The position numbers were made by a program, and so were the translations under genes. 64,000 bases of DNA. Origin: Solwaraspora sp. WMMD792. Lineage in GTDB: Bacteria > Actinomycetota > Actinomycetes > Mycobacteriales > Micromonosporaceae. Each line of letters starts with the position of its first letter. The stretch's first letter is position 1. The notes beneath the pieces were generated by a model, which made no database searches, had not been told where the DNA came from, and saw only the letters and a program-made list of their open reading frames with translations. The stretch spans positions 1,178,001 through 1,242,000 of the forward strand of contig NZ_JARUBH010000009.1 in the NCBI RefSeq assembly GCF_029626105.1. Direction: 5' to 3'. Shown piece by piece: positions 43,272 through 62,401 of this stretch.

Positions 43272-43286
43272 GGGAGGGCGGCGGTG

Positions 43287-44018: not shown

Positions 44019-44066
44019 TGATCGACCTCTACTTCCGCTCGGTTGGCGCCGACGTCAGCGGCAACC

Positions 44067-44090
44067 AGTGATTGATATGTATCAATCACT
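44067..44090. promoter_or_regulatory. 24-bp perfect palindrome upstream of the GH11 xylanase
   Basis: Arms AGTGATTGATA and TATCAATCACT flank a TG centre. A half-site TGATTGATA recurs at 44507-44515, upstream of the divergent PQQ dehydrogenase gene. It is a strong operator candidate; the regulator is unknown. Confidence 0.75.
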
Positions 44091-44149
44091 TGTTGAAGTG
44101 TCGGCCGGACTTCGGCGGAATGTCAACAGGTGACGGAGCTGGGCCACCA

Positions 44150-44466
44150 CGACCCGTCGTAACTGATCGGCGGCCCGGGACGCAGACCCGGGCCGCGAGC
44201 CTGTGCCCCTGCCGGGCAGATTTGCGGGCCTCCTCGTGGAAATCGGGTGCGGCGCAGGCGAACGGCGTCCGGCGGTCGGCGCCACCGAGGGCACAGGCGT
44301 AGATGGCGGTGACCCGGTTGCCGAACGTCTCCACCGCCAGCAGGACGCCATCGTCAGTGAGTACGCTGCCATTGGGGAACCACCACAGCTCGTCCGCCAC
44401 CTGGGTAACGGTGCCATCGGGGTCCACCCGGTGCGGTGCGGCTGGTGCCAGCGGCTCACCGGCCAT
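44150..44466 (-). pseudogene. Remnant of an SMP-30/gluconolactonase-type lactonase
   Basis: The minus-strand frame from ATG 44466 reads VADELWWFPNGSVLTDDG and AVETFGNRVTAI, then jumps to GGADRRTPFACAAPDF and RLAARVCVPG. In intact SMP-30 lactonases the first segment is central and the second is the C terminus. The N-terminal part and roughly 80-100 residues between the two blocks are therefore missing. The frame then runs on without family similarity. It is a deletion remnant, not a working gene. The 3' limit is approximate. Confidence 0.65.
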
Positions 44467-44506
44467 CAGTCGTCCTGCGTGCCCAGTTCGCCCGACACGG
44501 GCAATC

Positions 44507-44515
44507 TGATTGATA
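44507..44515. promoter_or_regulatory. Half-site of the xylanase palindrome before the PQQ dehydrogenase
   Basis: TGATTGATA repeats the half-site of the palindrome at 44067-44090, 39 bp before the PQQ dehydrogenase start. An imperfect second half cannot be assigned with confidence. Confidence 0.4.
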
Positions 44516-44553
44516 CATTGACATGCATCGCTCAATTTTGAGAGGTGTGTGCC

Positions 44554-46089
44554 ATGAAGCTCAGAACCGTGCTGGGGGCCGGCCTCGCCGCCGGCCTCGC
44601 CGCGACAGGTGTCGGCGTCGCCGCGGCGGCCGGCGCCGCTCCGGCCGCCGGTGACCGGGCGGCCGACCCGATCGGCACGAACGCCCTCGGCGACTTCGAC
44701 TTCTCCCGCCCCGCGGTGGCCGCGACCGGACTCCAGGTGCCGTGGGGGATGGACTTCCTGCCCGACGGCAGCGCGCTGGTGGCCCAGCGCGGCACCGGCC
44801 AGGTGGTCCGGGTGCGGCCCGGGCAGCAGCCGCAGCCGGTGGTCACGATCCCCGACGCGACCCCGGTCAGTGAGGGCGGTCTGCTCGGACTCGCGGTCTC
44901 GCCGACGTTCGCGCAGGACGACTACGTCTACGTCTACTACACCACCTCGACCGACAACCGGATCGTCCGGTTCCGGCTCACCGCACCGCAGAACCGGCAG
45001 CCGATCCTCACCGGGCTGGCCCGGTCGGCCATTCACAACGGCGGCCGGATCGCGTTCGGCCCCGACGGCATGCTCTACGCCGGTGTCGGCGACGCCGGGC
45101 AGACCTCGCACGCGCAGAATCAGCAGAGCCGCAACGGCAAGATCCTGCGGATGCGCCCGGACGGCGGCGCCCCGGCCGACAACCCCTTCCCGGGATCGCT
45201 CGTCTACAGCCTCGGCCACCGGCACGTCCAAGGGCTGGCCTGGGACGCGCAGGGCCGGCTCTACGCCACCGAGTTCGGACAGAATGCCTGGGACGAGATC
45301 AACCTGATCATCGCCGGTGGCAACTACGGCTGGCCGATCGTCGAAGGTCGGGCCAACGATCCCCGGTTCCGCGACCCGCTGCTGGTCTGGACCCCCGCTG
45401 AGGCCTCGCCGAGCGGCGCCGCGATCGTCGGGAACCGGCTGTACGTCGCCACGCTGCGCGGCAACCGGCTGTGGAACGTGCCGCTCGACGGGTCCGGCGG
45501 CGTCGGCACCCCGAGCGCCGAACTGCTCGGCAGTTACGGGCGGCTACGTACCGTCGAGTACGGACCGGACGGCTGGCTCTGGGTGACCACCAGCAACCGG
45601 GACGGTCGGGGGCAGCCGGCCGCCGACGACGACCGGATTCTGCGCTTCCCGCCCCTCGACGCCGTGACCCCGCCACCCACCACCGCCCCACCCACCACGG
45701 CCCCGCCGACCACCGCACCCCCGACCACGCCACCGCCGCCGACCACGGCCCCGCCGACCACCCCGCCGCCGAGCGGTAGCTGCCAGGTCTCCTACCAGGT
45801 CAACCAGTGGGGGAGCGGGTTCACCGCGGACGTCCGGATCACCAACCGCGGCGCGTCGCTGAACGGCTGGACACTGACCTGGACCTTCGCCGGCAACCAG
45901 CAGATCACCAACGGATGGAACAGCCAGATCAGCCAGTCCGGTCAGGCGGTGACCGCCCGCAACGCCGCCTGGAACGCCAATCTGCCGACCAACGGCACGG
46001 TCAGCTTCGGCTTCCAGGCGACCTACAGCGGCAGCAACCCCGGCCCGACCGACTTCCGACTCGACGGGACCGCGTGTCAGACCGACTGA
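44554..46089 (+). CDS. Secreted PQQ-dependent sugar dehydrogenase with CBM2
   Basis: This 511-residue protein has a signal peptide and a six-bladed soluble glucose dehydrogenase (GSDH/sorbosone dehydrogenase) domain (about 45-370). Its markers are PWGMDFLPDGSALVAQR, SEGGLLGLAVSP, IHNGGRIAFGPDGMLY and GHRHVQGLAWD. A Pro/Thr linker (PPTTAPPTTAPP type, 374-408) and a CBM2 (409-511) follow. It should oxidise sugars or oligosaccharide ends using PQQ, held on cellulose by the CBM. Electrons from such enzymes could feed lytic polysaccharide monooxygenases, but none is in the window. ATG at 44554 was preferred over GTG 44545 because AGAGG lies eight bases upstream. Confidence 0.88.
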   Translation: MKLRTVLGAGLAAGLAATGVGVAAAAGAAPAAGDRAADPIGTNALGDFDFSRPAVAATGLQVPWGMDFLPDGSALVAQRGTGQVVRVRPGQQPQPVVTIPDATPVSEGGLLGLAVSPTFAQDDYVYVYYTTSTDNRIVRFRLTAPQNRQPILTGLARSAIHNGGRIAFGPDGMLYAGVGDAGQTSHAQNQQSRNGKILRMRPDGGAPADNPFPGSLVYSLGHRHVQGLAWDAQGRLYATEFGQNAWDEINLIIAGGNYGWPIVEGRANDPRFRDPLLVWTPAEASPSGAAIVGNRLYVATLRGNRLWNVPLDGSGGVGTPSAELLGSYGRLRTVEYGPDGWLWVTTSNRDGRGQPAADDDRILRFPPLDAVTPPPTTAPPTTAPPTTAPPTTPPPPTTAPPTTPPPSGSCQVSYQVNQWGSGFTADVRITNRGASLNGWTLTWTFAGNQQITNGWNSQISQSGQAVTARNAAWNANLPTNGTVSFGFQATYSGSNPGPTDFRLDGTACQTD

Positions 46090-46197
46090 GTCAGCCGGGT
46101 GAGCGACCGGATGCGTCGGCCGTGGCGGGGGAGTCCGCCCGGCCGGCGCGCGGTCAGGGCAGTCGACATTGCGACGGCCACATGAAAGGAAGCTGCC

Positions 46198-47724
46198 ATG
46201 CCCACGATCCCCGCACCTCCGGCAGGTCCGGTGCCGGCCACGCCACGGCCACGTCACGCGCCCTTCCGGCGCAGGCGGGCCTCGCTCATCGCCGTCGGGC
46301 TGACCGTCGGCGTCCTCCTGGCCGGCGGCGTGATCGCCGCCGCGCCGCCCCCCGCCTCCGCCGCCACCGTCGACACCACCGCCTGGTACGTGCTCGTCGC
46401 CCGGCACAGCGGCAAGGCCCTCGACGTGTACGAGCGGGCCACCGGCGACGGTGCCCGGATCGTGCAGTGGTCGCGCAACGACGGTGCCTGGCAGCAGTGG
46501 CAGTTCGTCGACGCCGGCAACGGCTACTACCGGCTCCGGTCCCGGCACAGCGGCAAAGTTCTCGACGTGCGCGACTCGTCGACGGCCGACGGCGCGGACG
46601 TCGTCCAGTGGAGCGACGTCGACCGGGCCAGCCAGCAGTGGCGGCTCGCCGACTCCGACGCCGGCCACGTACGGCTGATCAACCGCAACAGCGGCAAGGC
46701 GCTCGACGTGTGGGAACGCTCGATCGCCGACGGCGCCCGGATCAGCCAGTGGACCGACTGGAACGGCACCAACCAGCAGTGGCAGCTGGTCCGGGTCGAC
46801 GCTCCCGGCACACCTACCCCCACCCCTGGCGTTCCGCCCGGCTCCTACCCGGACCCGATGCGGGTCACCGGGGACACCGGGGTGCACGACCCGAGCATGA
46901 TCCGTCGGCCGACCGGTGGCTACCTGATGGCGCACACCGGCAACGACGTGGCGCTGAAGACGTCCACCGACCGGGTCAGCTTCCGCAACGCCGGGTCGGT
47001 CTTCCCCGGCGGCGCGCCGTGGACCACCCCGTACACCGGCGGCAGCCGCAACCTGTGGGCGCCGGACCTGTCGTTCCACGACAACCGGTACTACCTGTAC
47101 TACTCGGCGTCGACGTTCGGGTCGAACCGGTCCGCCATCTTCCTGGCCACCAGCTCCACCGGCGCCTCCGGCAGCTGGACCAACCAGGGGTTGGTCGTCG
47201 AGTCGCAGAGCTCGGACACCTTCAACGCCATCGACCCGAACCTGATCGTTGACGACCAGGGCCGCTGGTGGCTGAGCTTCGGATCGTTCTGGTCCGGGAT
47301 CAAGATGATCGCCATCGACCCCAGCACCGGCCGGCGGTCCGGTTCGGTGATGCACAGCCTCGCCGGCCGTGGCGGCGGGGCGATCGAGGCGCCGACGCTG
47401 GTCAGGCGGGGCAGCTACTACTACCTGTACGTCTCCTTCGACCGGTGCTGTCAGGGCGCGGCCAGCACGTACCGGGTGATGGTCGGCCGGTCGACCAGCG
47501 TCACCGGTCCGTTCACCGACCGGTCCGGCAACCTGCTCACCGCTGGCGGTGGCACCCAGATCCTGGCCGGCCACGGCGGCGTCAACGGACCCGGTCATCA
47601 GGCGGTGCTCGCCGACGCCGACGGCGACTACCTCGTCTACCACTACTACGCGAACAACGGTGCCGCGCTGCTCGGCATCAACCGGATCGGCTACGACGCG
47701 GCCGGCTGGCCCTACCTGTACTGA
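46198..47724 (+). CDS. Secreted GH43 endo-arabinanase with N-terminal ricin-type CBM13
   Basis: This 508-residue protein has an Arg-rich signal anchor or signal peptide (cleaved near ASA-AT at 55). A ricin-B/CBM13 trefoil with three repeats follows (60-200; HSGKALDVYERATGDGA and QQWQF motifs). A short TPTPTP linker leads to a GH43 domain of the arabinan endo-1,5-alpha-L-arabinosidase group. The catalytic triad is Asp231 (GVHDPSM), Asp346 (NAIDPNL) and Glu397 (AIEAPTL). AAAGGAAG precedes the ATG. It cuts arabinan side chains of pectin. The ricin domain precedes the enzyme, whereas it is more often at the C terminus. Confidence 0.92.
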   Translation: MPTIPAPPAGPVPATPRPRHAPFRRRRASLIAVGLTVGVLLAGGVIAAAPPPASAATVDTTAWYVLVARHSGKALDVYERATGDGARIVQWSRNDGAWQQWQFVDAGNGYYRLRSRHSGKVLDVRDSSTADGADVVQWSDVDRASQQWRLADSDAGHVRLINRNSGKALDVWERSIADGARISQWTDWNGTNQQWQLVRVDAPGTPTPTPGVPPGSYPDPMRVTGDTGVHDPSMIRRPTGGYLMAHTGNDVALKTSTDRVSFRNAGSVFPGGAPWTTPYTGGSRNLWAPDLSFHDNRYYLYYSASTFGSNRSAIFLATSSTGASGSWTNQGLVVESQSSDTFNAIDPNLIVDDQGRWWLSFGSFWSGIKMIAIDPSTGRRSGSVMHSLAGRGGGAIEAPTLVRRGSYYYLYVSFDRCCQGAASTYRVMVGRSTSVTGPFTDRSGNLLTAGGGTQILAGHGGVNGPGHQAVLADADGDYLVYHYYANNGAALLGINRIGYDAAGWPYLY

Positions 47725-47756: not shown

Positions 47757-48464
47757 TCAGTCGGTCACCGACAGATCGATGGTGTGCGCGGCGTGGTTCG
47801 CCTTGGCGGCCAGGTAGCGGACGTTCGCGGCGGAGACGTGCACGCCGGTGGGGACCTGCTCGGTCACCGTGACGCCGAGCCGGGTGAGCTGCGCCGCCTT
47901 GTCCGGATTGTTGCTGAGCAGGGCCACCCGGTGCACGCCGAGCGCGAGCAGCATCTGCGCCGCGACCGTGTAGTCGCGCTCGTCCTCACCCCGGCCCAGC
48001 GCCACGTTCGCCTCGAACGTGTCCAGCCCGGCGTCCTGCAGCGCGTAGGCGTCGAGCTTGGCGTACAGCCCGATGCCCCGCCCTTCCTGCCGCAGATAGA
48101 GCAGGAAGCCGCCGTGAGCGGCGATCCGCTCCACCGCCTCCCGCAGTTGCGGGCCGCAGTCACACCGCTGACTGCCGAACACGTCGCCGGTCAGGCACTC
48201 GCTGTGCGGGCGTACCAGAGGCGGGTCGCCACCGTCGGCGGCCCGGTCCAACGCCCGGTCCCAGTCGCCCAGACCCAGCGCCACGTGCTCGCGTCGGTCG
48301 GTCAGGCCGTCGAAGGTGAAGACCCGGGCGCTGGCGGTGTAGCCGTCGGCGAACCGCAGCGGCACCGTCACCTGCCGGCGGACCGTCGCCGTCGGCGCGG
48401 GACCCGTCCCGTTGGTGGCGGCGCGCTTACCGTTGACCGGAGCGTGGGGCGGCGGTTCAAGCAT
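47757..48464 (-). CDS. ribA: GTP cyclohydrolase II
   Basis: This 235-residue protein is a stand-alone GTP cyclohydrolase II without a DHBP synthase domain. The zinc site HSECLTGDVFGSQRCDCG and the GTP/catalytic segment RQEGRGIGLYAKLDAYALQD are intact. GTP is opened to 2,5-diamino-6-ribosylamino-4-pyrimidinone phosphate with loss of formate and pyrophosphate. ATG at 48464 was chosen because AGGAC is upstream and the earlier frame has no family similarity. It is divergent from a RibD-type reductase and next to a PTPS/GT/MT operon. No ribE, ribH or lumazine genes are present, so it probably serves a special pathway and not bulk riboflavin. Confidence 0.93.
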   Translation of the reverse strand: MLEPPPHAPVNGKRAATNGTGPAPTATVRRQVTVPLRFADGYTASARVFTFDGLTDRREHVALGLGDWDRALDRAADGGDPPLVRPHSECLTGDVFGSQRCDCGPQLREAVERIAAHGGFLLYLRQEGRGIGLYAKLDAYALQDAGLDTFEANVALGRGEDERDYTVAAQMLLALGVHRVALLSNNPDKAAQLTRLGVTVTEQVPTGVHVSAANVRYLAAKANHAAHTIDLSVTD

Positions 48465-48598
48465 CGTACGTCCTATCGGTGATGTGCTGCGCAGAGCGTC
48501 GGCACCGGTCCGGCCGGCACCGACACATGAGCCGTACGGGAGAATGTGTGCCGGCCTCGCATGCAGGCTATCTTTCGGTCGTCGAGGAGGTGCCATCA

Positions 48599-49291
48599 GT
48601 GGTTGAGCGACCCTACGTCCTGCTCAGCTGCGGCATGTCGATCGACGGATATCTGGACAACGCGAGCGGGCGGCGCCTGCTGCTGTCCAACGACGCCGAC
48701 TTCGACCGGGTCGACGCGGTACGCGCCGACTGCGACGCGATCCTGGTCGGGGCCGGCACGGTGCGCCGCGACGACCCTCGGTTGCTGGTCCGGTCGGCGG
48801 ACCGCCGGCGTCGGCGGGTGGCCGCCGGCCACCCACCCACCCCGATGAAGGTCACCGTCACCGGCAGCGCCGACCTCGACCCGAAGGCGCGGTTCTTCAC
48901 CGTCGGCGACGTCGACAAGGTCGTGTACTGCGCCACGGCGAGCCTGGGCAGCGCCCGCACCCGGCTCGCCGGGCTCGCCACCGTCGTCGACTGCGGTGAC
49001 CCGGTCGACCTGCGACGGGTCGTCGGCGACCTGCATGTCCGGGGCGTCGGCCGGTTGATGGTCGAAGGCGGCGGACGGGTGCACACCCAGTTCCTCACCG
49101 CCGGCCTGGCCGACGAACTGCACCTGGTGGTCGCCCCGATCTTCGTCGGCGACTCCCGGGCACCCCGGTTCGTCGGCGACGGCAGCTTCCCGTGGCACGC
49201 CGACCGGCGGGCGACGCTGGTCGAGGTCCGCCAGATCGGCGACGTGGCCCTGCTGCGCTACGCCCTGTCGTCCCGGTTCGGCGAGCAGTAG
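48599..49291 (+). CDS. RibD C-terminal domain reductase
   Basis: This 230-residue NADPH-dependent reductase belongs to the RibD C-terminal/dihydrofolate reductase superfamily. Markers are LSCGMSIDGYLD, GAGTVRRDDPRLLVR and LMVEGGGRVH. It lacks the deaminase half of bifunctional RibD. It probably reduces the ribosyl group of the pyrimidine made by the divergent ribA gene product. GTG at 48599 has GAGGAGG eight bases upstream and starts the conserved region. It is convergent with the flippase-like gene. Confidence 0.88.
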   Translation: MVERPYVLLSCGMSIDGYLDNASGRRLLLSNDADFDRVDAVRADCDAILVGAGTVRRDDPRLLVRSADRRRRRVAAGHPPTPMKVTVTGSADLDPKARFFTVGDVDKVVYCATASLGSARTRLAGLATVVDCGDPVDLRRVVGDLHVRGVGRLMVEGGGRVHTQFLTAGLADELHLVVAPIFVGDSRAPRFVGDGSFPWHADRRATLVEVRQIGDVALLRYALSSRFGEQ

Positions 49292-49326
49292 CCGACCAGC
49301 CCGTCCCGCCATCACGTTGCTGGCCG

Positions 49327-50346
49327 TCACGTCGCCGGACGTGGTCGCAGGCGTAGCCGCAGCCGCAGCGGCGGCCGTTGCCGGACCGCCGGCAGCCGGC
49401 GCACCCAGCGGACCGCCAGCACACCAGCACCCGGCAGGCTCGCCGTCAACGCCAGCAGGCCGTACACCACCGCGACGGTCAACCCGAGGCCCGCGCCGAG
49501 CCCGGCCGCACCGAACGCCCACGCGGTCACCCCTTCCCGCGGTCCCCAGCCGCCGACGTTCAACGGCACCGCCATCGCCAACAACGCCAGCACCATCAAC
49601 GGTGCCAGCTGGTGCAGCGGCGCCGTCGACCCGGCGGCGCGGGCCGCGACCAGGAAGGTGGCGAGGTGACCGGCTAGCGCGGCGACCGACAGCAACGCCA
49701 CCCCCGGCCAGGTCCGTCGGGCCAGCAGACCGCTGCGCAGGTCGGCGACGGTCCGCCCGACCGCGCGGGTCCACCAGGACCCGCCGGACCCGGCGGCTGC
49801 CGTTCGACGGACCCGTGGCCGACGGCGGCGTACCGCCACGAACAGCGCCACCATCAGCGCGGCCGCCGCGACCACGGCCGCTGCGACCTGAGCCGCGGTG
49901 ACCAGCCGTGCGGGTGCCGGCACCGGCAGCGTCAGCAGCACCCCCGCGGCGACCGCGAACAGCACCAGCTGACCGGCGGTCCGTTCCAGCACCACCGCGC
50001 GTACCCCCCGGCCCACGTCGGCCACCTCCCGGCCGTGCCGGACCGCGCGGTGCACGTCACCCAGCACCCCACCGGGCAGCGCGGCGTTGAGGAAAATCGC
50101 CCGGTAGTAGTCGGCGACCGCCCCGGCCAGCGGCAGCGCCAGCCCCATCCCCCGGGCGACCAGGCACCACCGCCAAGCGCTGCAGACCGTGGTCAGCAGC
50201 CCGATCCCGACCGCCAGCAGCAGCACCCGCGCGTCGATCACCCGCATTCCGTCCAGGAACGCGTTGGTGCCGAGCCGCCAGGCCAGCAGCCCCAGGATGG
50301 TCACCCCACCGGTCAGTCGCAGCCAGGCCCAGACCTTGCCCTTCAC
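49327..50346 (-). CDS. LPG-synthase-type (UPF0104) membrane protein
   Basis: This 339-residue integral membrane protein has about eight spans and matches the lysylphosphatidylglycerol synthase transmembrane/UPF0104 family. The markers are RAIFLNAALPGGVLGDVHRA and VPLNVGGWGPREG. Family members flip or transfer lipid-linked groups; MprF uses this domain as a lipid flippase. The C terminus is Arg-rich and cytoplasmic. It is downstream of the methyltransferase gene in the same direction, with a 146-bp gap, so it may have its own promoter. The start is GTG. In this cluster it may move the final product or a lipid-linked intermediate. Confidence 0.85.
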   Translation of the reverse strand: MKGKVWAWLRLTGGVTILGLLAWRLGTNAFLDGMRVIDARVLLLAVGIGLLTTVCSAWRWCLVARGMGLALPLAGAVADYYRAIFLNAALPGGVLGDVHRAVRHGREVADVGRGVRAVVLERTAGQLVLFAVAAGVLLTLPVPAPARLVTAAQVAAAVVAAAALMVALFVAVRRRRPRVRRTAAAGSGGSWWTRAVGRTVADLRSGLLARRTWPGVALLSVAALAGHLATFLVAARAAGSTAPLHQLAPLMVLALLAMAVPLNVGGWGPREGVTAWAFGAAGLGAGLGLTVAVVYGLLALTASLPGAGVLAVRWVRRLPAVRQRPPLRLRLRLRPRPAT

Positions 50347-50492
50347 TGTGCGTCACGGCCGGTGCCGGCCGTGCGCAACGGGCTCTTCGCCCTGTGCATT
50401 ACGTGCCCCCCTCGATGAGCCTCCGCCGACAGATACGCGGCGGTGTCGCCTCCGGTTCACCTGCCCGGCACCGGAAGTACGCTGTGCAGACC

Positions 50493-51320
50493 TCAGCCGG
50501 GCACGACCAACATGTCCCGGTGTTCCACGGTGACCCCCAGTTCACCGGCGGCGGCAGCGGCGAGCCGGCGGCGCCGGTAGCCCTCCGGCCGGGCGGCCAG
50601 CTCCGGCCGCTGCTCGTACGCCGCCGCGATCCAGCCGTCCAGCCACCGTTCGGTCAGCTCGGCCCGCTCGGGGCCGAGCAGCCACGGACTGGGCCGCACC
50701 AGCACGGTGGCCCCGTGCCGGGTGAACGCCTCGGTCGCCGCCTCCACCGCCGACGGGCCGAGTAGCGGCCGACCCGCACTGTGCCGCCGCTGATGCTCGT
50801 TGAACGCGGCCGTCAGCTCACCGTCGAGCGGGTCGGCGGGATCGAACCGTACCTCACCGACCACGGTCAGGGTCAGCAACGCCGGACAGGCGACCGCCCG
50901 GACGGTCGCCGCCAGCCGGTCCACCTCGTCGGCGGTGAGCAGGTCCAGCAGGGCCGACGCGGTGACCAGGTCGGCGCCGGCGAGGTCGTCGACGGTGAGC
51001 GCGGTGAGGTCGTCGCGGCGTGCCGTCGCGGTGACCGGTGCGCCGTCGGACGCCGCCGGGGCCATCCGGGCCTCGGCATGGCGCAGCAGTTCGCGGTCGC
51101 GGTCGTGCAGCACCCAGCGCTGGGCACCGGGCAGCTGCGGGGCCAGCCACCGGCCCATCGACCCGGTGCCGCAGCCGAGGTCGTGTATCTCGGTGCGGGC
51201 GGCGCCGGTCAGCAGCCGGCGTACCTCGGCGACCAGTTCCGCCGAGCGCGCCTGCGCGTCCGCGGGCTCCCGCAGCCCCAACCACGCCGGGCTGTACCCG
51301 GCCGACTCGATCGTCTCCAT
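50493..51320 (-). CDS. Class I SAM-dependent methyltransferase
   Basis: This 275-residue methyltransferase has motif I IHDLGCGTGSMGRWL near residue 45, acidic loop VLHDRDRELL, and motif IV-like ADLVTASALLDLL. GGAGG lies upstream of the ATG. It follows the GT4 gene by 33 bp, in the operon MDR-PTPS-GT-MT. It probably methylates the glycosylated or reduced pterin-like product; the substrate is unknown. Confidence 0.87.
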   Translation of the reverse strand: METIESAGYSPAWLGLREPADAQARSAELVAEVRRLLTGAARTEIHDLGCGTGSMGRWLAPQLPGAQRWVLHDRDRELLRHAEARMAPAASDGAPVTATARRDDLTALTVDDLAGADLVTASALLDLLTADEVDRLAATVRAVACPALLTLTVVGEVRFDPADPLDGELTAAFNEHQRRHSAGRPLLGPSAVEAATEAFTRHGATVLVRPSPWLLGPERAELTERWLDGWIAAAYEQRPELAARPEGYRRRRLAAAAAGELGVTVEHRDMLVVPG

Positions 51321-51353
51321 GAAGTCTCCCTCCGCTGGGGCGGGGCGCCGTCG

Positions 51354-52421
51354 TCAGCGCCGACTCAGTTCGTGTAGTACCGCACCGACTGCGGCGGCCG
51401 TGTCCGCCCAGTCGGGCAGCCCGGCCCGGCGCGCGACGGCGGCCGCCCGCAACCGCTCCCGCTCGCCGCCGTCGGTCAGCCAGCGGCGTACCGCCGCACC
51501 GAGCGCCGCCGGGTCGGCGGGCGGCACCAGCCGGCCCGGTCGCTCACCCGTGTCGGTGCGACCCAGTGCCTGCGGCACCCCGCCGACGCCGCTGGCCAGC
51601 ACCGGGATGCCGCAGGCCAGCGCCTCGGTGACCACCATGCCGTACGTCTCGGCATGCGACGGCAGGATCAGCAGATCGGCGTCGGCGTACGTGCCGGCCA
51701 ACGTCGCCGCCGCGCGGGGCCCGGCCAGCGTGACACGGTCCCCGAGCCGGTGGTACGCGATCCGCTGCCGGACCCGGTCGACGTACGCGGCGGCGGTCAG
51801 CGCTCCCACGCAGACACATTCCCAGTCCAGGTCGGTGACGGTGGCGAGCGCCTCGACGAGCACGTCGTGGCCCTTACGGGGGGTGACCGACGCGACGCAG
51901 AGCAGCCGTCGGCCGGCCGGGTCCCGGTTCGCCAGGGGCGCCGGTGCGACGCCCGGCACCGCCACCCGGATCCGGTCGGCGGCCAGACCGTGGCGGGCGG
52001 CGAGTTGGCGGGCCGTCGCGTCGCTGGTGGCGATCACCGCCGCCGCCGAGCCGAGCGCCGCGCGTTCGGCCAGGTCCAGCTCGGCAGCCTCGGCCGGGTC
52101 CAGCCCGGTCTCGTCGGCCAATGGCAGGTGGACCAGCACGGCCAGCCGCAGCCGGTCAGCGTGCGGTCCGATCACCTCGGGCACCCCACAGGCGACCAGA
52201 CCGTCGATCAGCACCACCGTGCCGTCGGCCAGGGTGGCGAGGAGGTCGGCGAGCGCGGCCCGGCTGGTCCGGTCCGGGCACGGCCAGTCACCGGGGAGAG
52301 CGATCTCGCGCGCCGGCCATCCGGCCGCGGCCAGACCGGTGCAGACCTGCCGGTCGTAGACGTTGCCGCCGCTGGGGGCGGTCGGATCGTCCACGTTGCC
52401 GGGCAGCACCACGACGACCAT
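51354..52421 (-). CDS. GT4-family glycosyltransferase
   Basis: This 355-residue GT-B fold enzyme of family GT4 has N-terminal VVVVLPGNVDDPTAPSGGN and CVASVTPRKGHDVLVEAL (the domain-2 start). The nucleotide-sugar loop is LILPSHAETYGMVVTEALA, with the E-x7-E motif. ATG at 52421 was chosen because it lies five bases after the PTPS-homologue stop and begins the Rossmann strand; the upstream frame lies inside the PTPS gene. It would attach a sugar to the pathway intermediate. No nucleotide-sugar synthesis gene is close by. Confidence 0.9.
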   Translation of the reverse strand: MVVVVLPGNVDDPTAPSGGNVYDRQVCTGLAAAGWPAREIALPGDWPCPDRTSRAALADLLATLADGTVVLIDGLVACGVPEVIGPHADRLRLAVLVHLPLADETGLDPAEAAELDLAERAALGSAAAVIATSDATARQLAARHGLAADRIRVAVPGVAPAPLANRDPAGRRLLCVASVTPRKGHDVLVEALATVTDLDWECVCVGALTAAAYVDRVRQRIAYHRLGDRVTLAGPRAAATLAGTYADADLLILPSHAETYGMVVTEALACGIPVLASGVGGVPQALGRTDTGERPGRLVPPADPAALGAAVRRWLTDGGERERLRAAAVARRAGLPDWADTAAAVGAVLHELSRR

Positions 52422-52426
52422 CGACG

Positions 52427-52825
52427 TCAGAGCGCCCGCTCGTAGCTCGCCCAGGCGATGTGCGACTCGTGCAGGGTGACGCCGATTCCGGTCAAACCAC
52501 GGGCACCGGCACCGAGATCGCCCGCGTGCACCCGGTCGGCCAGCCGGTCGGCGATCAACTTGGCCAGCCATTCGGTGGAGGTGTTGATCCCCGCGAACGC
52601 CGGCTCGTCGTCGAGGTTGCGGTAGTTCAACTCGGCCAGTACGGCCTTGAGCTGCTCGGTGGCCAGGCCGATGTCGACGACGATGTTGTCGCTGTCGAGG
52701 TCGGTGCGCTTGAACGTGGCGTCGACGACGAAGGTGGCACCGTGCAGCCGTTGCGCCGGCCCGAACACGTCACCGGTGAAGCTGTGGGCGACCATGATGT
52801 GGTCACGTACGGTGACGCTGAACAT
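52427..52825 (-). CDS. Degenerate PTPS/QueD-fold protein lacking zinc and catalytic residues
   Basis: This 132-residue T-fold protein is homologous to 6-pyruvoyltetrahydropterin synthase and QueD. The first zinc His is kept (His14 in VAHSF) and the second (His28 in RLHGAT), but the third is Ala30. The catalytic Cys is replaced (Ala24), and the Asp-His pair of LDHxxLN is Asn67-Tyr68 (LNYRNLDD). The pterin-anchoring Glu120 ([11 protein letters not shown]) and NTSTEWLA are kept. A Streptomyces coelicolor homologue, SCO6650, is known to lack the zinc and triad and does not catalyse the PTPS reaction. GGAGG precedes the ATG. It lies three bases after the MDR gene. Confidence 0.9.
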
Positions 52826-52828
52826 TTC

Positions 52829-53812
52829 TCATCCTCCAGTCGGGTAACGGATCACGTGGCACAACGCCGGCAACTCGCCGGCCGCCAGCCGGGGCAGCAC
52901 CTCGGGCAGGTCGGTGAAGTCGCTCTCACCGGTCAGCAGAGCGTCGAACCTCTCGTCGGCGAGCAGCTCCAGGGCGAGAGCCAGCCGTCCGGCGTACCCG
53001 TGCCGGTCGCGTCGGGCCGGGGCGACCCGGCCGACCTGGCTGCTGCGCACGGTCAACCGGCGGGAGTGGAAGTGTTCGCCGAGCGGCACGGTGACCGGGC
53101 GGTCGCCGTACCAGCTGAGGTCGACCACCGTGCCCTCGACGGCGAGCAACTCCAGCGACCGGGCCAGCCCGGCCGACGTGGCGCTGGCGTGGAACACCAG
53201 GTCGCACCCATCGGTGGCGGTGTCCGGGTGGGCGAAGCCGACGCCGAGCGCGGCGGCGGTCACGGCCCGTGCGGGGTCGACGTCGACCAGTTCGACCCGT
53301 ACGCCGGGGAACCGGGCGGCGAGCGCGGCGACGGCGCTGCCGACCATCCCGGCACCGACCACGGCGATCCGGTCGCCGAGCAGGGGAGCGGCGTCCCACA
53401 GGGCGTTGACCGCGGTCTCCACCGTGCCGGCGAGCACGGCGCGGCGGGCCGGCACGGTGTCCGGGACCACGGTGACCGCGTCGGCCGGCACGACGTAGCG
53501 GGTCTGATGCGGGTAGAGGCAGAAGACGGTACGTCCGACCAGGTCGGCCGGGCCCTGCTCGACCTGCCCGACGTTGAGGTATCCGTACTTGACCGGGGCG
53601 GGGAAGTCGCCGTCCTGGTACGGGGCGCGCATCGCGGCGTGCTGGCTGGGCGGCACCTCGCCCCGGAAGACCAGCGTCTCGGTGCCCCGGCTGAGCCCGG
53701 TGAACCGGGTCCGCACCAGGACCTCGCCGGGGCCGGGCGGATTGACCTCGACCGGCCGGATCTCGCCGGTGCCCGGGGTACGCAGCCAGAACGCCTGATC
53801 GCGCAGCGTCAT
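52829..53812 (-). CDS. MDR-superfamily oxidoreductase without zinc ligands
   Basis: This 327-residue medium-chain dehydrogenase/reductase has Rossmann motif IAVVGAGMVGSAVAALAAR near residue 150. The usual zinc-binding GHE and Cys residues are missing: the corresponding segments read TGLSRGTETLVFRG and VKYGYLNVGQV. This resembles the BchC-like/zinc-less branch. ATG at 53812 follows GGGGAG. It is the first gene of the MDR-PTPS-GT-MT operon and probably oxidises or reduces the sugar or side chain of the pathway compound. Confidence 0.83.
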   Translation of the reverse strand: MTLRDQAFWLRTPGTGEIRPVEVNPPGPGEVLVRTRFTGLSRGTETLVFRGEVPPSQHAAMRAPYQDGDFPAPVKYGYLNVGQVEQGPADLVGRTVFCLYPHQTRYVVPADAVTVVPDTVPARRAVLAGTVETAVNALWDAAPLLGDRIAVVGAGMVGSAVAALAARFPGVRVELVDVDPARAVTAAALGVGFAHPDTATDGCDLVFHASATSAGLARSLELLAVEGTVVDLSWYGDRPVTVPLGEHFHSRRLTVRSSQVGRVAPARRDRHGYAGRLALALELLADERFDALLTGESDFTDLPEVLPRLAAGELPALCHVIRYPTGG

Positions 53813-53998: not shown

Positions 53999-54391
53999 AT
54001 GCGACGCTCCATCGCGGCGGCGACCGCCTGCCTGCTGGCGGCCACCGGCGGGTTGCTCGGGCTCGTGTCGCGGCCCGCCCACGCGGCGTCTTCCTGCACG
54101 GTCGACTACTAGGTGACCAGGGAATGGTCGACCGGGTTCGTCGCCCGGATGACACTGACCAACCTGGGCCCGCCGGTCTCCACCTGGCGACTCACCTTCA
54201 CCCCGGGCGCCCGACAGACCATCAACTCCGCGTACCGGCAGGTGCCGCCCGGTCTCGTCCTGAGCCCGCTCGCCTGGCCGTACGAGCTGCGCTCCGACGC
54301 CGGGGCGTACCACCTGGACACCGGCGACTCGGTGCGGGTGCAGTTCAGTGGCAACTACTCCGTGGCCAACCCGCCACCGACGAGCTACCGG
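53999..54391 (+). pseudogene. GH5 cellulase pseudogene, 5' part: signal peptide and broken CBM2
   Basis: From ATG 53999 the frame gives a good signal peptide (RRSIAAATACLLAATG to AHA) and the first residues of a CBM2 (SSCTVDY). It then meets an in-frame TAG at 54110-54112 (codon 38). The same frame continues with REWSTGFVARMTLTNLG and FSGNYSVANPPPTSYR, clearly the rest of the CBM2. An IS605-type element interrupts it at about 54391. The module resumes beyond the element at 56167. Two independent lesions show the gene is dead. Confidence 0.85.
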
Positions 54392-54407
54392 AATGCGGGC
54401 CAGTGCT

Positions 54408-54423
54408 CCGGCCTTCAGGCCGG
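54408..54423. other. Left-end subterminal hairpin of the IS605-type element
   Basis: CCGGCC-TTCA-GGCCGG is a perfect 6-bp stem with a 4-nt loop. It fits the hairpin that TnpA recognises in single-stranded form. Confidence 0.65.
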
Positions 54424-54469
54424 GGGTGAAGGCCCGCGCTGGGAGGGCCGCCAGGGTCCGAGCAGTGCT

Positions 54470-54886
54470 CTAAGCTGGCCGGTTTTGCCGCTCGATGTAC
54501 TGCTGCACGATGCTTGGTGGTGCGCCGCCGACGGAGCCGGCGAAGTACGAGCCCGACCAGAGCTTGTTGGCCCGGTGGTAGTGGCGTGCGAGGTCGGGGA
54601 ACTCCTGCCGCGGGCGGCGCGACGGGACGCCCTTGAGTGAGTTGACCAGGCGGGAAACGGCGACTTTGGGTGGGTGGTCGACCAGCAGGTGGACGTGGTT
54701 GTGGCCGCCGTTGAACTCGACCAGTTCGGCCTCGAAGTCCGTGCATACGTCCCGCATGATCGCCTCCATGCGGGTCAGGTGCCGGTCGGCGAACACCGTG
54801 TGCCGGAACTTCGTCACGAAAACCAAGTGAACATGCATCGCGAAAACACGGTGCCTGCCGGTACGGACGTCTTCGACTTCCGCCAT
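54470..54886 (-). CDS. tnpA: IS200/IS605 Y1-type transposase TnpA
   Basis: This 138-residue HUH-superfamily single-strand transposase has the metal-binding HUH pair His64-Val-His66 in GHNHVHLLVD. The catalytic Tyr130 in IVQQYIERQ is present, and so is the central KGVPSRR segment. The length is normal for TnpA, and no stop or frameshift is seen, so the element should be able to move. It cuts and rejoins single-stranded ends through a 5'-phosphotyrosine link. It is divergent from tnpB. Confidence 0.93.
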   Translation of the reverse strand: MAEVEDVRTGRHRVFAMHVHLVFVTKFRHTVFADRHLTRMEAIMRDVCTDFEAELVEFNGGHNHVHLLVDHPPKVAVSRLVNSLKGVPSRRPRQEFPDLARHYHRANKLWSGSYFAGSVGGAPPSIVQQYIERQNRPA

Positions 54887-54902
54887 AGACCAACGTGATA
54901 TT

Positions 54903-56141
54903 GTGTGGTTCGTGCAGCTCCGGTACCAGTTCCGGGTCTATCCGACACCCGGCCAGCAGATCGCGCTGGCCCGGGCGTTCGGATGCGCCCGGGTGGTGTT
55001 CAACGACGGGCTGCGCCTCCGGCGGACCGCCCACGAGCAGGGTCTGTCGTACGTGTCGGACGCCGAGTTGTCGAAGCGGGTCATCACGCGGGCCAAGGCG
55101 ACTCCGGAGCGGGCGTGGCTGGGTGAGGTGTCGGCGGTGGTGTTGCAGCAGGCCCTCGCGGACCTGAACACCGCGTACCGCAACTTCTTCGCCTCGATCA
55201 CCGGCAGACGCAAGGGCCGCATGGTGGCCCCGCCGAGGTTCCGGTCCCGTAAGGACAACCGGCAGGCCATCCGCTTCACCCGCAATTCCCGGTTCACGGT
55301 CCTGGACAACGGTCGTCTGCGGCTGCCGAAGATCGGCGACCTCACGGTCCGCTGGTCCCGGATACTGCCGTCGGACCCGTCGTCCGTGACGGTCATCCGG
55401 GACGCCGCCGGGCGGTATTTTGCCTCGTTCGTCGTGCGGGCCACGGACGAGCCGTCGCCGCCGACCGATGCCGAGGTGGGGATCGATCTGGGGCTGACGC
55501 ACTTCGCGGTCATGTCCGACGGCACGAAGGTGGCCGCGCCCAGGTTCCTGCGCCGCGCGGCCCGCAAGCTCAAACGGCTGCAACAGGCCCTGTCGCGCAA
55601 GCAGCGGGGCAGCAACCGCCGTGGGAAGGCCGTCGTGAAGGTCGCCAGGGCACACGCCCGGGTGGCCGACACCCGGCGGGACTGGCAGCACAAGCTGTCC
55701 ACGACGATCATCCGTGAGAATCAAGCGGTGTACGTCGAGGACCTGTGTGTCGTCGGTCTCGGCCGGACCCGGCTGGCGAAGTCGGTGCACGACGCGGGAT
55801 GGTCGTCGTTCGTGGGCATGTTGGAGTACAAGGCGGCGAGGTCCGGGCGTACGTTCGCCCGGGTGGACCGGTGGCTCCCGTCCACCCGGATGTGCTCGGA
55901 CTGCGGCCGGATCAACGAGCGGATGGCGTTGAACGTGCGGTCGTGGGTCTGTCCGTGTGGCAGTCACCACGATCGGGATGTCAACGCCGCGATCAACATC
56001 AAGGCCGCCGGGCAGGCGGACTTCAACGACCGTGGAGCGCGGGTAGGACCGGGACCCGTCCCGGCACCGCGCGGTGAAACGGTAACCCACCAGAACACTG
56101 CGCGTGTCACGCGCGGCGTGGCTGGAATCGCCGCCGATTAG
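54903..56141 (+). CDS. tnpB: RNA-guided nuclease TnpB (IS605 OrfB)
   Basis: This 412-residue TnpB, an ancestor-type relative of Cas12, has an N-terminal helical region starting RYQFRVYPTPGQQ. The RuvC catalytic residues are Asp194 (GIDLGLTHFAV), Glu279 (YVEDLCVVGL) and Asp359 (HDRDVNAAINI). The zinc ribbon has CSDCG and CPCG. All key residues are present, so the nuclease is probably active with a right-end-derived guide RNA. The GTG start at 54903 is used; GTG at 54912 is an alternative. The C-terminal 45 residues overlap the region expected to encode the guide RNA scaffold. Confidence 0.92.
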   Translation: MWFVQLRYQFRVYPTPGQQIALARAFGCARVVFNDGLRLRRTAHEQGLSYVSDAELSKRVITRAKATPERAWLGEVSAVVLQQALADLNTAYRNFFASITGRRKGRMVAPPRFRSRKDNRQAIRFTRNSRFTVLDNGRLRLPKIGDLTVRWSRILPSDPSSVTVIRDAAGRYFASFVVRATDEPSPPTDAEVGIDLGLTHFAVMSDGTKVAAPRFLRRAARKLKRLQQALSRKQRGSNRRGKAVVKVARAHARVADTRRDWQHKLSTTIIRENQAVYVEDLCVVGLGRTRLAKSVHDAGWSSFVGMLEYKAARSGRTFARVDRWLPSTRMCSDCGRINERMALNVRSWVCPCGSHHDRDVNAAINIKAAGQADFNDRGARVGPGPVPAPRGETVTHQNTARVTRGVAGIAAD

Positions 56142-56166
56142 TTTAGGGCGGCGAGGATGTCAACAC
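56000..56166 (+). ncRNA. Probable omega RNA (reRNA) region at the IS right end
   Basis: In IS200/IS605 elements the TnpB guide RNA is made from the 3' end of tnpB and the right end, and its guide continues into flanking DNA. The terminal hairpin TCGCCGCC/GGCGGCGA (56128-56154) would be its last stem. Limits are approximate. The guide would begin about 56167, reading CTCAACGGCCAGACCTGC of the cellulase gene. Confidence 0.45.
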
Positions 56167-56881
56167 CTCAACGGCCAGACCTGCAACATGGACCCCGACC
56201 TGCCGCCGAGCCCGAGCGTCCCGCCGAGCCCGAGCCTCCCGCCGGCCGATCCGTTCCCGCCGGTCGTCGCGCTGCGCAGCCCGCAGATGAACCAGATCTT
56301 CGCCACGACCGGCCCCATCCCGGTGGCGGTCGACGTCACCGCCGCCGCCGGACGTCGGATCACCCGGGTCGAGTTCCGCTCCGCCGGCACCCTGCTGCAC
56401 ACCGACACCACCGCCCCGTACACCTTCACCTGGCACGGTGCCCAGCCGACCAACGGGACGCGGATCGCGGCGACCGCCCACGACGACGCCGGCGCCCACG
56501 CCACCGCCGAGGTCCGCGGCGTCCGGGTGGTGAGCCCAGCGCCGCCCGGTCACGCCCCGGTGCTGACCGTGGCCGGCAACCAACTGGTCACCGTCGACCA
56601 GCAGCCCCGGCCGTACCAGCTGCGCGGAGTGGTCCGCGCCGGCGCCGAAACACTGTGCCGCGACGGCTCCGGAATCTTCCACGGCCCGGTCGACGAGTGA
56701 GGACACCGGAGGGCACCGGTTCGTCGCCGAGGTGATCGACTGGCTCGACGACCGCCGGCTAGGCTTCCTCGGCTCGGTGTGGCACACCGACGGATACGGC
56801 GACGTTCCGCCGTTGATCCGTGGCTACGATGGCCCGCCGACGCCGTACGGTGCCGGGGTGAAGGCCCAGCTGCGCCGTTGA
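56167..56881 (+). pseudogene. GH5 cellulase pseudogene, 3' part: CBM2 end, Ig-like domain, GH5 ends
   Basis: The frame resumes with LNGQTCN, the last residues of the CBM2. A PSPSVPPSPS linker and a bacterial Ig-like domain (VALRSPQMNQIF to VRGVRVVSP) follow. The N terminus of a GH5 endoglucanase is recognisable (NQLVTVDQQPRPYQLRGVVR, then GSGIFHGPVDE) before a TGA at 56698-56700. In another frame the GH5 C terminus is found (VAEVIDWLDDRRLGFLGSVW to TPYGAGVKAQLRR, stop at 56879-56881). Nearly the whole catalytic core, including both catalytic Glu residues, has been deleted. Confidence 0.85.
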
Positions 56882-57052
56882 CCGTCCACCCAGGCCACCG
56901 GAAAGCACCACCTCCGCGCCCGGGACAACACGACACGCTGTTCTGCGGTAACCTGCCCAGTCGTCGTCCAGGCCCGACGGTCCGGGCGACGACCCACCCT
57001 CACCTCGGCCCACCCTACGACGGGGCCGAGCGTCTGATCCGGAAGGAAACCG

Positions 57053-57286
57053 ATGTCGCAGACCATGGCAGGACCGGCCACCGAGCAGAAGTCCTGGCTC
57101 GTCGCGCTGCTGCTCAGCTTCTTCCTCGGCGGGTTCGGAGCGCACCGGTTCTACGTTGGCAAGATCGGCACCGGCGTTCTGATGCTGGTCACCTTCGGCG
57201 GACTGGGCCTCTGGGCGCTGATCGACTTCATCGTCATCCTGATCGGCAAGTTCACCGACAAGCAGGGCCAGCCGCTGGCCAAGTGA
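57053..57286 (+). CDS. TM2-domain membrane protein
   Basis: This 77-residue protein has two membrane spans separated by a short turn. Its markers are [20 protein letters not shown] and [20 protein letters not shown], then [11 protein letters not shown]. This is the complete TM2 domain (PF05154), whose function is unknown. GGAAGG precedes the ATG. It is a single-gene unit ended by a 36-bp palindrome shared with the convergent GH43 gene. Confidence 0.92.
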
Positions 57287-57301
57287 TCGGCGAAGCCCGC
57301 A

Positions 57302-57337
57302 GGCTGGGGCGCTACCCGTACGGGTAGCGCCCCAGCC
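57302..57337. terminator. Bidirectional terminator, 36-bp perfect palindrome
   Basis: Arms GGCTGGGGCGCTACCCGT and the exact complement meet without a spacer. It lies between the convergent TM2 and GH43 genes, four bases beyond the GH43 stop. Confidence 0.85.
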
Positions 57338-57340
57338 GCG

Positions 57341-60300
57341 TCACGAGACGTCGACGACGACCGCTCCGCCGCCGAGCGCGGTGGTGTCGGCGTTGATCCG
57401 GCTGTCGTAGACCACGGTCCCGGTGTCCGCCTCCCGGATCCGGATCCAGAACCGGTCCTTGCCCCGCTCCCGCAGCGCCTCGTCGTTCAACCCGACCAGG
57501 TACTCGTAGTCGCCGGCGCCGTTGACCGTGCCCCGGCCGTTGAACCGCACCTGTGGACCGTCGACGACGTACCCCCGGTGGCTGGTGGCGGCGAACTCCC
57601 ACCCGCCGAGGCGCAGCCGCAGCGCCGCCGGTCCCGGCCCGGTCGTTTCCGGCCCGGTGGCCGCGACGAACCCGAACTCGGCCCGCCCGGCCCGCTCCTC
57701 GTCGGCGACGTACGCCCCGGCCGGTGAGCTGACCCAGCCGGAGCCGGCGACGTACCCGCCGCCGGCCCGGTGTACCGCCAGATAGCCACCGGTCAGGGTG
57801 TGCGCGGCAGCCCGGTCGTCGATCACCGTGACCGTCGGTCGGTACACCCCCGGTTCGGCGTAGGTGTGCGCCGCGACGCAGGCGGACCCGTCGATCGTGC
57901 CGGCGTCCACGGTGTCGTCGCCCCAGACCACCACGCAGCGGTGCGTGTCGTCCGTGCCGGAGTCGGTGAAGGTCGCGGTGACGCTGACCTCGGTGCCGGC
58001 CGCGACCGGACCGGCCGGACCGGTGACCGCGATCACCACCGGAGCGGTGTTGACCGGCCGGATCGGCGCGACGCTTTCCAAGGTCGGCACCACCGGGACG
58101 ATGGAGCCGTCGTCGGCGAATTCCAGTCGGTCGATGGTCGTCTCCCGGTGGGTGCCGTCGCCGTCCGGGATGGCGAACCGGTGGTACGCCACGTACCAGT
58201 CGTCGGTGCCGGGGACACGCACCACCGAGTGGTGGCCGGTGCCCTTGATTCCCAACGACAGGTCCTTGCGCAGGATGGTGCCGCGCCGCTCGCTCCACGG
58301 CCCTAGCGGCGAGTCACCGACGGCGTACGCCACCTGGTAGTCCTCGCTGCGGGTGTCGTTCTCCGACCACATGAAGTAGTAGCGACCGTCGCGCTTGATC
58401 ACAAAGGCACCCTCGTTGTACCCGGCCGGCCGGTGCGAGGTCACCTTCGCCGGGTCGAACGACACCATGTCGTCGTTGAGTTCGACCTGGTAGGCGTAGC
58501 CGTTGCCCCAGTACAGGTAGGACCGGCCGTCGTCGTCGGTGAAGACCGCCGGGTCGATCATCTGACCGGGGTAGGTGCCCGCCGGCACCAGCGGCTCGCC
58601 GAGCGCGTCGCGGAACGGCCCGGTCGGTGAGTCGGCGACGGCGACCCCGAGGTGCTTACCTGTGTCGCCGGTGGCCCTGCCACCGCTGAAGTAGAAGTAC
58701 CACTTGCCGTCGCGTTCGGCGATGGTCGGCGCCCAGGCGCTGTTGTCCGCCCAGGAGATGTCGGTCGCCAGGTCCAGGATGACCCCGTGGTCGGTCCAGT
58801 TCACCAGGTCCACCGAGGAGAACACCGAGAACTTCGTGCCGCTCCAGCCGGCGAAACCGTCAGTGGTGGCGTAGAGGTAGAACCGGTCGCCGAAGACCGC
58901 GATGTTCGGGTCGGCGTACAGGCCGGTCAGCACCGGGGAGCGCATCAGCCGGGCCTCGACGGTCCAGGTCGCGGTGGAGCCGTCGGCTCCGGTGACCGTG
59001 TACGTCACCGGTGCGCTCAGGTCCCGGACGGTGCCCGACGCCGGTGCGACGCTGGCGCCGGGGGCCAGGGTGAACTCCGGGGCCAGGGCGGTCAGGTCGG
59101 TGTCCGGCCGGACCGGCAGGATCACCCGCCGGTCGTCGGCGTCGACGATCGCGTCCACCTTCAGCTGCGGCAGGGTCGCGTCGGTGATCGCCGCCGGGTC
59201 GCCGCCGAGGGCGTACACCTCGTCGGCGGTCAACGCCCGGTTGTAGATCCGGAAGTCGTCGACCTCACCGGCGAAGTACGGGTCGGCGCCGTAGAGCGAG
59301 CGTCCGATGTATCCGGCGTAGTCGCGGCTCGGGTCGTGCAGGTCAGACGGGCGCACGGCCACGTCGGTGGCCCGGGCGATCTCGACGCCGTCGAGATACA
59401 TTACGGCGGTACGGGTGACCGAGTCGACGGTCACCGCCAAGTGCTTCCACTCGCCGCCGGTCAGCGCCGACGGTGCCCGCAGCTGCTTCTCCGCCTGCCA
59501 GCTGCCGGTGGTGATCGCCGAGAACAGCACCCCGCCGCCGTTGCGCGGGCTGGCGAACAGGTACCGGTTACTGTCCGGGCCGAGGCCGTAGATCCACTGG
59601 TTGGCGGTGCTGGACGCGTCCCATTTGACCCAGGTCGCCACGGTGGTGCTGGCGACCCCGGCGTACACGCCGTCGGGGATCGTCACGTACGGCGCGGTGG
59701 TCGAGCCGCTGGCCCCGCCGCTCATCTTGAACGAGCCGCCGCCGTCGACGCCGGTGCCGAACGCGGGAGTCCGCTCGTAGCGGCCGTGCCGGCCCTGCCC
59801 GGAGGAGTCGGTGGCGACACTGCCGCCGGTTTCCTCGAACTCGTAGTGCAGCAGTAGTCCGTCGGTCGGCTCCGGTCCTGGGTCCGGTCCGTACGCGGCG
59901 AGCAGCGCGTCGTATTCGGCCTGGGTGACCGGCAGCACGGTGCCGTGCCGGGGGCTGGTCGGCAGCGCGTAGTCAGTCGACGGCGTCCACTCGCCGGAGG
60001 CGAGGTCGGTGGTCTCGAACGGGAGGTAGCCGCGCCCGCCGAACTCGTCGATGAACAGGTACCACTTCTCCTCGGTGTTCGACTTGAAGATGGTGGGCCC
60101 TTCACCCTGGGACATCGTGCCCTGACCGATGCAGTCGGCCAGGAAGTCCCAGCCGGTGTCGCGCAGTGACGTCGATGTCTCGGCAAGGATGAACTTGCTG
60201 CACGGCGTCGACGACGAGTTGTTGCGTTCGTCCTTGGTGAACCGGTAGTAGACGCCGTCGTGGTCGATCACCGTCGAGTCGATGACCGAGTAGCCGGGGT

Positions 60301-62167: not shown

Positions 62168-62224
62168 GACTGTCTCCTCCTGGGAGGCGTCCGGTTTGTT
62201 GGCAGAGGTTTCGGTATCAGATCT

Positions 62225-62238
62225 TGTTAGCGTTAACA
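62225..62238. promoter_or_regulatory. LacI-type operator before the double-GH43 gene
   Basis: TGTTAGCGTTAACA is a near-perfect palindrome centred on CG, of the class used by arabinose/arabinan LacI regulators. It is 57 bp upstream of the GH43 start. No matching regulator gene is in the window. Confidence 0.75.
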
Positions 62239-62401
62239 ACGCGCGGCAGGCGACGTCCCGGTTCGCGTTCGCCCGATTCGTCGCCGTGACACGGCGGTTG
62301 CGAGAGTGTTATCCGGTTTGTACCTCGTCGTCAAGGGCCGGACTCCGGGGACGCGCCGCCGACGGACGGGCAGGTAGCGGGCGGCCTCTAGCATCCGGAT
62401 C

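Follow-up and report, generated by a model that had tools for sequence, protein, structure and literature searches.

The closest described relative of the gene set considered here is the SCO6650-SCO6655 cluster of Streptomyces coelicolor, which is itself already known but whose role, to our knowledge, has been open since the enzyme and structure reports. SCO6650 is a T-fold homologue of PTPS with a solved structure (PDB 3d7j) that presumably lacks zinc and the PTPS catalytic residues, and SCO6655 is a GTP cyclohydrolase II (GCHII) with a methionine, Met120, which Spoonamore reportedly found in 2006 to yield a formylated compound and to gain full activity on M120Y mutation. Two further routes share parts of this inventory: in the archaeal/fungal-type riboflavin entry a 2,5-diamino reductase acts before deamination, and toxoflavin-type pathways use a GCHII, RibD and a methyltransferase. 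The 2006 work is cited for altered GCHII activities in Streptomyces (PMC3509567, in excerpt). In Sinorhizobium, and also in Brucella, the creatininase-family protein BrbF deformylates the formylated GTP-opening intermediate to 2,5-diamino-6-ribosylamino-4(3H)-pyrimidinone 5'-phosphate (DARoPP), and the excerpted text of that paper describes the enzyme making the intermediate there as still to be found (PMC9478397). Here we analyse a 64,000-nucleotide stretch of Solwaraspora sp. WMMD792 (contig NZ_JARUBH010000009.1, positions 1,178,001 to 1,242,000; the window), in which seven neighbouring genes encode a GCHII (RibA), a stand-alone RibD_C reductase, a T-fold PTPS homologue, an MDR-type oxidoreductase, a GT4-family glycosyltransferase, a methyltransferase and an LPG_synthase_TM (flippase-like) membrane protein. 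Comparison across actinomycetes supports a dedicated, non-riboflavin GTP-derived pathway conserved as a gene set, with two versions of the opening step that should yield the same diaminopyrimidine.

The window set resembles each of these systems in part. Its T-fold protein is the ortholog of SCO6650, which it matches over its full length of 132 residues with 230.7 bits; at E ≤ 0.01 this is the only match among solved structures. Judging from other Streptomyces loci, the order PTPS homologue, GT4, methyltransferase, LPG_synthase_TM, creatininase, GCHII fits the six numbers SCO6650-6655. In contrast to that cluster, the window has a GCHII of another clade with a tyrosine in place of the methionine, a stand-alone reductase and no creatininase. 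The creatininase of the relatives resembles that of the BrbF/ArfB riboflavin step as excerpted in PMC9478397, where such a protein acts on the formylated GTP-opening product, and the same deformylation is predicted; however, it is paired with a Tyr-less GCHII and lies outside a riboflavin operon. The window reductase is scored best by an archaeal-type model and its nearest named chains are 2,5-diamino-pyrimidinone reductases, as in the archaeal/fungal-type entry, but a deaminase was not detected in the locus, and the seven genes include neither a lumazine nor a riboflavin synthase. By description, toxoflavin-type special-metabolite clusters also carry a GCHII, a reductase-family gene and a methyltransferase gene, whereas the window set has T-fold, MDR, GT4 and membrane genes instead.

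A first-pass annotation of the window had proposed that seven neighbouring genes form a GTP-derived route to a pterin- or deazapurine-like compound, and all seven are indeed intact. MDR, PTPS homologue, GT4 and methyltransferase, which it had called an operon, lie on the minus strand in an operon-like arrangement, separated by 3, 5 and 33 bp, and the LPG_synthase_TM gene is found on the same strand 146 bp further on. The reductase gene, after another 35 bp, is on the plus strand, convergent with the LPG_synthase_TM gene and divergent from ribA (134 bp); because of this opposite strand the seven genes are not a single operon but one operon-like run with an adjacent GTP-opening pair. As had been noted, ribE and ribH are absent from the set (a family search of the seven proteins found neither RibE nor RibH), and the set is not a riboflavin operon. 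Elsewhere the genome encodes RibD, RibE and RibBA in a riboflavin-type run, with RibE identified by inspection of its open reading frame (ORF), and the window ribA is therefore a second copy.

The genes stay together elsewhere, a point on which the earlier proposal had turned. The T-fold ortholog was found in 143 of 200 sampled genomes of the family Micromonosporaceae and in 10 of 396 sampled genomes of the phylum, the window genome being included in both counts. Through this gene we located 130 loci, namely 80 (L001-L080, the best 80 of at least 400 confirmed matches), 49 others and the window. This was a non-random draw, which took 9 of the 10 phylum matches (the tenth is the window genome) and, from the 142 other family matches, 40 chosen to spread genera plus a 41st, G204; some genomes in different sub-samples may belong to the same species. 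With presence scored by bit-score limits, MDR was kept in 128 of the 130 loci, GT4 in 127, LPG_synthase_TM in 123 and the methyltransferase in 116. The most distant relative, G008, has only MDR, T-fold (54% identical) and a stretch of GT4. What stands of the earlier interpretation is thus a dedicated non-riboflavin, GTP-derived and pterin-like gene set; the deazapurine-like option is not supported.

The opening step is where relatives of the window diverge. The window GCHII keeps the equivalents of the three zinc cysteines, Asp126, Arg128 and Tyr105 (E. coli numbering), which we take to be the functional positions of this enzyme; it belongs to the Pfam family of GCHII and reaches NCBIfam NF001591 (256.8 against a cut-off of 148). 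Across 141 GCHII sequences the three cysteines, Asp126 and Arg128 are invariant and position 105 alone varies: among the 111 loci with a readable GCHII it is Tyr in 51, Met in 53 and His in 7, with Met in all 53 Streptomyces/Amycolatopsis-type sequences, and it is Tyr in the 30 readable GCHIIs outside clusters. A creatininase-family gene lies near all 60 Met or His loci and near none of the 51 Tyr loci. Three creatininase metal-site motifs are kept in 61, 57 and 60 of the 61 creatininases, and two members from relatives, which score 197.7 and 212.6 bits with PF02633, belong to the family; their nearest NCBIfam model is MftE (138.8 and 131.7 against 172 bits). Eight genomes of the 80-locus set whose loci lack a linked GCHII showed no Met or His enzyme elsewhere among the readable matches, and seven of these eight loci also lack the creatininase. 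One locus from the window's own family contains an ORF resembling a creatininase that looked, on reading, like an antisense artefact, and the window genome's own creatininase sits in a different context; neither was retained as a cluster partner.

Since the window RibA keeps the tyrosine lost in SCO6655, the two versions should open GTP differently. The Tyr enzyme of the window, which keeps the switch residue, is predicted to convert GTP to DARoPP with deformylation included, whereas in Met and His relatives the reaction would halt once the formylated intermediate is made, leaving the formyl group to be stripped by the creatininase-family protein encoded next door. The residue pattern, the BrbF precedent and the reported behaviour of SCO6655 together imply that both modules should supply DARoPP.

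In quick GCHII trees the Tyr-type cluster enzymes, except that of L005, form a clade apart from the window genome's RibBA and similar enzymes (support 99), and the Met and His enzymes form clades of their own (support 95-97 and 100, respectively). These separate clades indicate that different GCHIIs have filled the same place in the cluster. The exception, a Pseudonocardia metagenome-assembled genome, has a Tyr GCHII on another, long branch of unsure placement, with a reductase and no creatininase; its core genes group, less securely, with those of the His-type Pseudonocardia (support 92). L118 and L182, which are too short, were omitted from the core (MDR and PTPS homologue) tree, and L199, with an in-frame stop, from the GCHII tree.

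The T-fold protein belongs to the PTPS family by fold (PF01242, 79.4 bits). All 130 T-fold sequences retain Glu120, which aligns with what we take to be the pterin-anchoring glutamate. PTPS and QueD motifs end in HGH according to excerpts of the T-fold family survey, where other subfamilies are described as well, including one whose function is unclear (PMC5041015); all 129 aligned sequences, the window's included, have HGA. Both features are universal here, which marks an established subfamily and not a gene in decay. The MDR protein scores below cut-off with ADH_zinc_N (23.2 against 31.8 bits) and with BchC (52.8 against 291.25), and Ser41 occupies the position of the catalytic zinc ligand Cys, assigned from the MDR motif, in 40 of 40 sequences. 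Searched against solved structures, the single protein gave eight matches, all generic dehydrogenases, and the profile gave one at E ≤ 1e-8 (4cpd, 39 bits). The first-pass annotation was therefore right about a T-fold protein that has lost its zinc motif and kept a pterin-binding residue, about its S. coelicolor relative with a solved structure, and about a zinc-less MDR enzyme.

RibD_C (PF01872, 140.7 bits) is the only domain detected in the window reductase. Its best NCBIfam model is the archaeal TIGR01508, and among solved structures it matches 5xux (named only as a conserved protein; 115.8 bits), 6p8c (91.0) and 2azn (76.9). The last two carry names of 2,5-diamino or 5-amino pyrimidine reductases or of similar proteins; Rv2671 follows with 60.0 bits, and no full bacterial RibD exceeds 42.6. 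A stand-alone reductase occurs, in varying order and strand, in 49 of the 51 Tyr loci and in 12 of the 60 Met or His loci. No deaminase domain was found in 129 of the 130 loci by a single tblastn search (E ≤ 1e-3) that a distant one could escape, a point to be held against the reading below, and the one match falls in an ORF reading as TadA-like. With no deaminase detected, the 2-amino group should stay, and a pterin-like rather than a flavin ring would be expected. Of the two ring types first suggested, the pterin-like one agrees with the missing deaminase and the conserved glutamate, and the deazapurine-like one does not fit the loss of HGH or the absence of radical SAM and QueC-type domains from the seven proteins.

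We hypothesize, with somewhat better than even confidence, that the set converts GTP to a glycosylated, methylated 2-amino-4-oxo compound, either pterin-like or a ribityl-diaminopyrimidine, which would cross the membrane or be anchored in it. After the opening to DARoPP, the stand-alone RibD_C protein is predicted to reduce ribose to ribityl with no deamination. The zinc-less T-fold protein might then grip the 2-amino-4-oxo edge of the ring during oxidation of the side chain by the MDR enzyme, with closure or modification of the ring; the GT4 enzyme could attach a sugar and the methyltransferase a methyl group. Finally, LPG_synthase_TM may link the product to the membrane or move it through, acting with a CDP-alcohol phosphotransferase whose gene is found close to most of the related clusters (111 of the 130 loci). 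We infer these later steps, including the order of the T-fold, MDR, GT4 and methyltransferase reactions, the sugar and the product, from the gene content, and the CDP-alcohol phosphotransferase neighbour hints at a membrane-linked product. A more specific scheme, which we consider improbable in its entirety, is a GTP cyclohydrolase I-independent, membrane-linked pterin-like glycolipid: reductase and MDR would move the sugar carbonyl from C1' to C2' by reduction and then oxidation, the zinc-less T-fold protein would template the closing of the ring, and a lipid-anchored product would be assembled and displayed in aerial hyphae and spores by GT4, methyltransferase, CDP-alcohol phosphotransferase and flippase.

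Several observations weigh against the favoured pathway. The window GCHII stays below the RibA model TIGR00505 (182.7 against 205.85), its reductase below TIGR01508 (137.8 against 186.45 bits), the T-fold protein below QueD, and the two scored creatininases of relatives far below the ArfB equivalog cut-off (29.3 and 32.4 against 180 bits). No reductase lies near 42 of the 53 Met loci or 6 of the 7 His loci. L026 has a creatininase with no GCHII within reach, and in its genome the two longer GCHIIs are of the Tyr type and three short matches are unreadable. The core tree holds only two independent changes of version, both concordant, so that a sign test gives p 0.5 and cannot fall lower. The Met and His clades are neighbours in the best tree (support 75), and a single loss of the tyrosine may underlie both. 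The window and all six same-genus loci lack a linked CDP-alcohol phosphotransferase, although a 57% relative is encoded elsewhere in the window genome. Finally, 19 of the 130 loci have no readable GCHII nearby, in a few cases because the contig stops short, and lie outside the 111 counted above. This last point would also suit an unlikely alternative, in which the ribA-ribD pair is a flavin-supply module beside an unrelated envelope glycolipid cluster of MDR, T-fold, GT4, methyltransferase, flippase and CDP-alcohol phosphotransferase genes. In the family sample of 200, counted by eye from match lists (E ≤ 1e-20 for T-fold, 1e-62 for RibA), 135 genomes have both the T-fold gene and a window-type RibA, 8 the T-fold gene only, 15 RibA only and 42 neither; 15 of the 150 RibA-bearing genomes thus do without the T-fold gene, which likewise weighs against the favoured pathway. 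Unlinked window-type RibA genes (L211, L212 and L215) lie next to or near ORFs reading as MarR-like regulators, which suggests another, regulated role for this GCHII clade, and in G008 the window-type GCHII (L210, 9319-11187) is fused to an acyl-CoA-dehydrogenase-like, flavin-type domain (PF02771/PF08028). Against flavin supply, GCHIIs of at least two supported lineages, plus a third on the long L005 branch, occupy the same place, the creatininase tracks the residue change, no deaminase was detected in all but one of the loci, and the ring-binding glutamate of the T-fold protein is universal.

That the set is another way into ordinary pterin or folate synthesis, with a dihydroneopterin-type cofactor as product and the sugar and methyl group as later trimming, seems very improbable. 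This reading would account for membership of the T-fold family, for Glu120 and for a predicted 2-amino-4-oxo pyrimidine intermediate, but T-fold enzymes that make cofactors have an HGH zinc motif, which is missing throughout, and the GT4 and membrane genes, superfluous for a plain cofactor route, are kept in nearly all loci. Of the NCBIfam models, QueD comes closest to the T-fold protein (35.5 bits against a cut-off of 89.25), which favours a deazapurine (preQ0-like) route. However, the HGH motif is absent, the entry enzyme is GCHII and not GTP cyclohydrolase I, and no radical SAM or QueC-type partner was found among the seven proteins, to which this search was limited; we regard this route as extremely unlikely. 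Co-occurrence with unlinked RibA was dropped as functional proof, given the 15 genomes without the T-fold gene and the fused copy; seven of eight genomes whose set has no nearby GCHII carry a window-type RibA elsewhere.

In S. coelicolor, SCO6652 is up by log2 0.8 in the substrate stage, 4.3 in the aerial stage and 4.1 in the spore stage relative to the first mycelium (PMC3610822, in excerpt), and SCO6655 is listed in a gene group mostly up in stationary phase (PMC2853524, in excerpt). With SCO6650 as the T-fold gene, SCO6655 as the GCHII gene and the Streptomyces gene order between them, SCO6652 would be the methyltransferase gene. The literature searched, mostly outside subscription papers, gave no account of a two-version opening logic. 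Two interchangeable opening modules predict one common intermediate and would turn an orphan cluster into a pathway that can be tested step by step. The creatininase is a likely native partner for the formyl-stopping GCHII, and the similarity-derived labels RibA, QueD and creatininase probably mislead in many actinomycete genomes that carry this set.

Table 1. The seven genes of the window, with the evidence for each assignment.
Gene product	Coordinates	Strand	Evidence
MDR-type oxidoreductase without a typical zinc-ligand motif (Ser41 where Cys is expected)	52829-53812	-	ADH_zinc_N 23.2 bits, BchC 52.8 bits (both below cut-off)
T-fold PTPS homologue, ortholog of SCO6650 (PDB 3d7j), HGA for HGH, Glu120 kept	52427-52825	-	PF01242 79.4 bits
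GT4-family glycosyltransferase	51354-52421	-	Family model searches
SAM (S-adenosylmethionine)-dependent methyltransferase	50493-51320	-	PF13649 35.7 bits
LPG_synthase_TM (flippase-like) membrane protein	49327-50346	-	PF03706 104.7 bits
Stand-alone RibD_C reductase, no deaminase domain	48599-49291	+	PF01872 140.7 bits
Dedicated GCHII (ribA); zinc Cys, Asp126, Arg128 and Tyr105 equivalents kept	47757-48464	-	Family models and residue alignment

Some features of the relatives, namely the creatininase/GCHII swap, the CDP-alcohol phosphotransferase and sulfatase-family genes, had not featured in the first-pass annotation. Sulfatase-family genes (PF00884; LTA-synthase-like by reading) lie near 23 of 49 loci in one subset and 12 of 81 in another. 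By reading ORFs, FkbM methyltransferase-like genes recur near 12 of the 130 loci and HAD phosphatase-like genes near 8, and an inositol-monophosphatase-like ORF lies near 10 of 81 loci, mostly in Amycolatopsis. The CDP-alcohol phosphotransferase relative of the window genome (L085, 6219-7791) adjoins an ORF reading as an FkbM-type methyltransferase, and the fused GCHII of G008 adjoins ORFs reading as biotin-synthesis genes. Around the window cluster (41829-47724 and 54113-62239), ORFs read as CBM2, ricin-type and GH43-like secreted proteins, and some of these neighbours recur in six loci, same-genus loci among them. Just upstream of the cluster, at 54470-56141, lies an IS200/IS605-like pair, a TnpA-like ORF on the minus strand and a TnpB-like ORF on the plus strand, both named by reading the ORFs.

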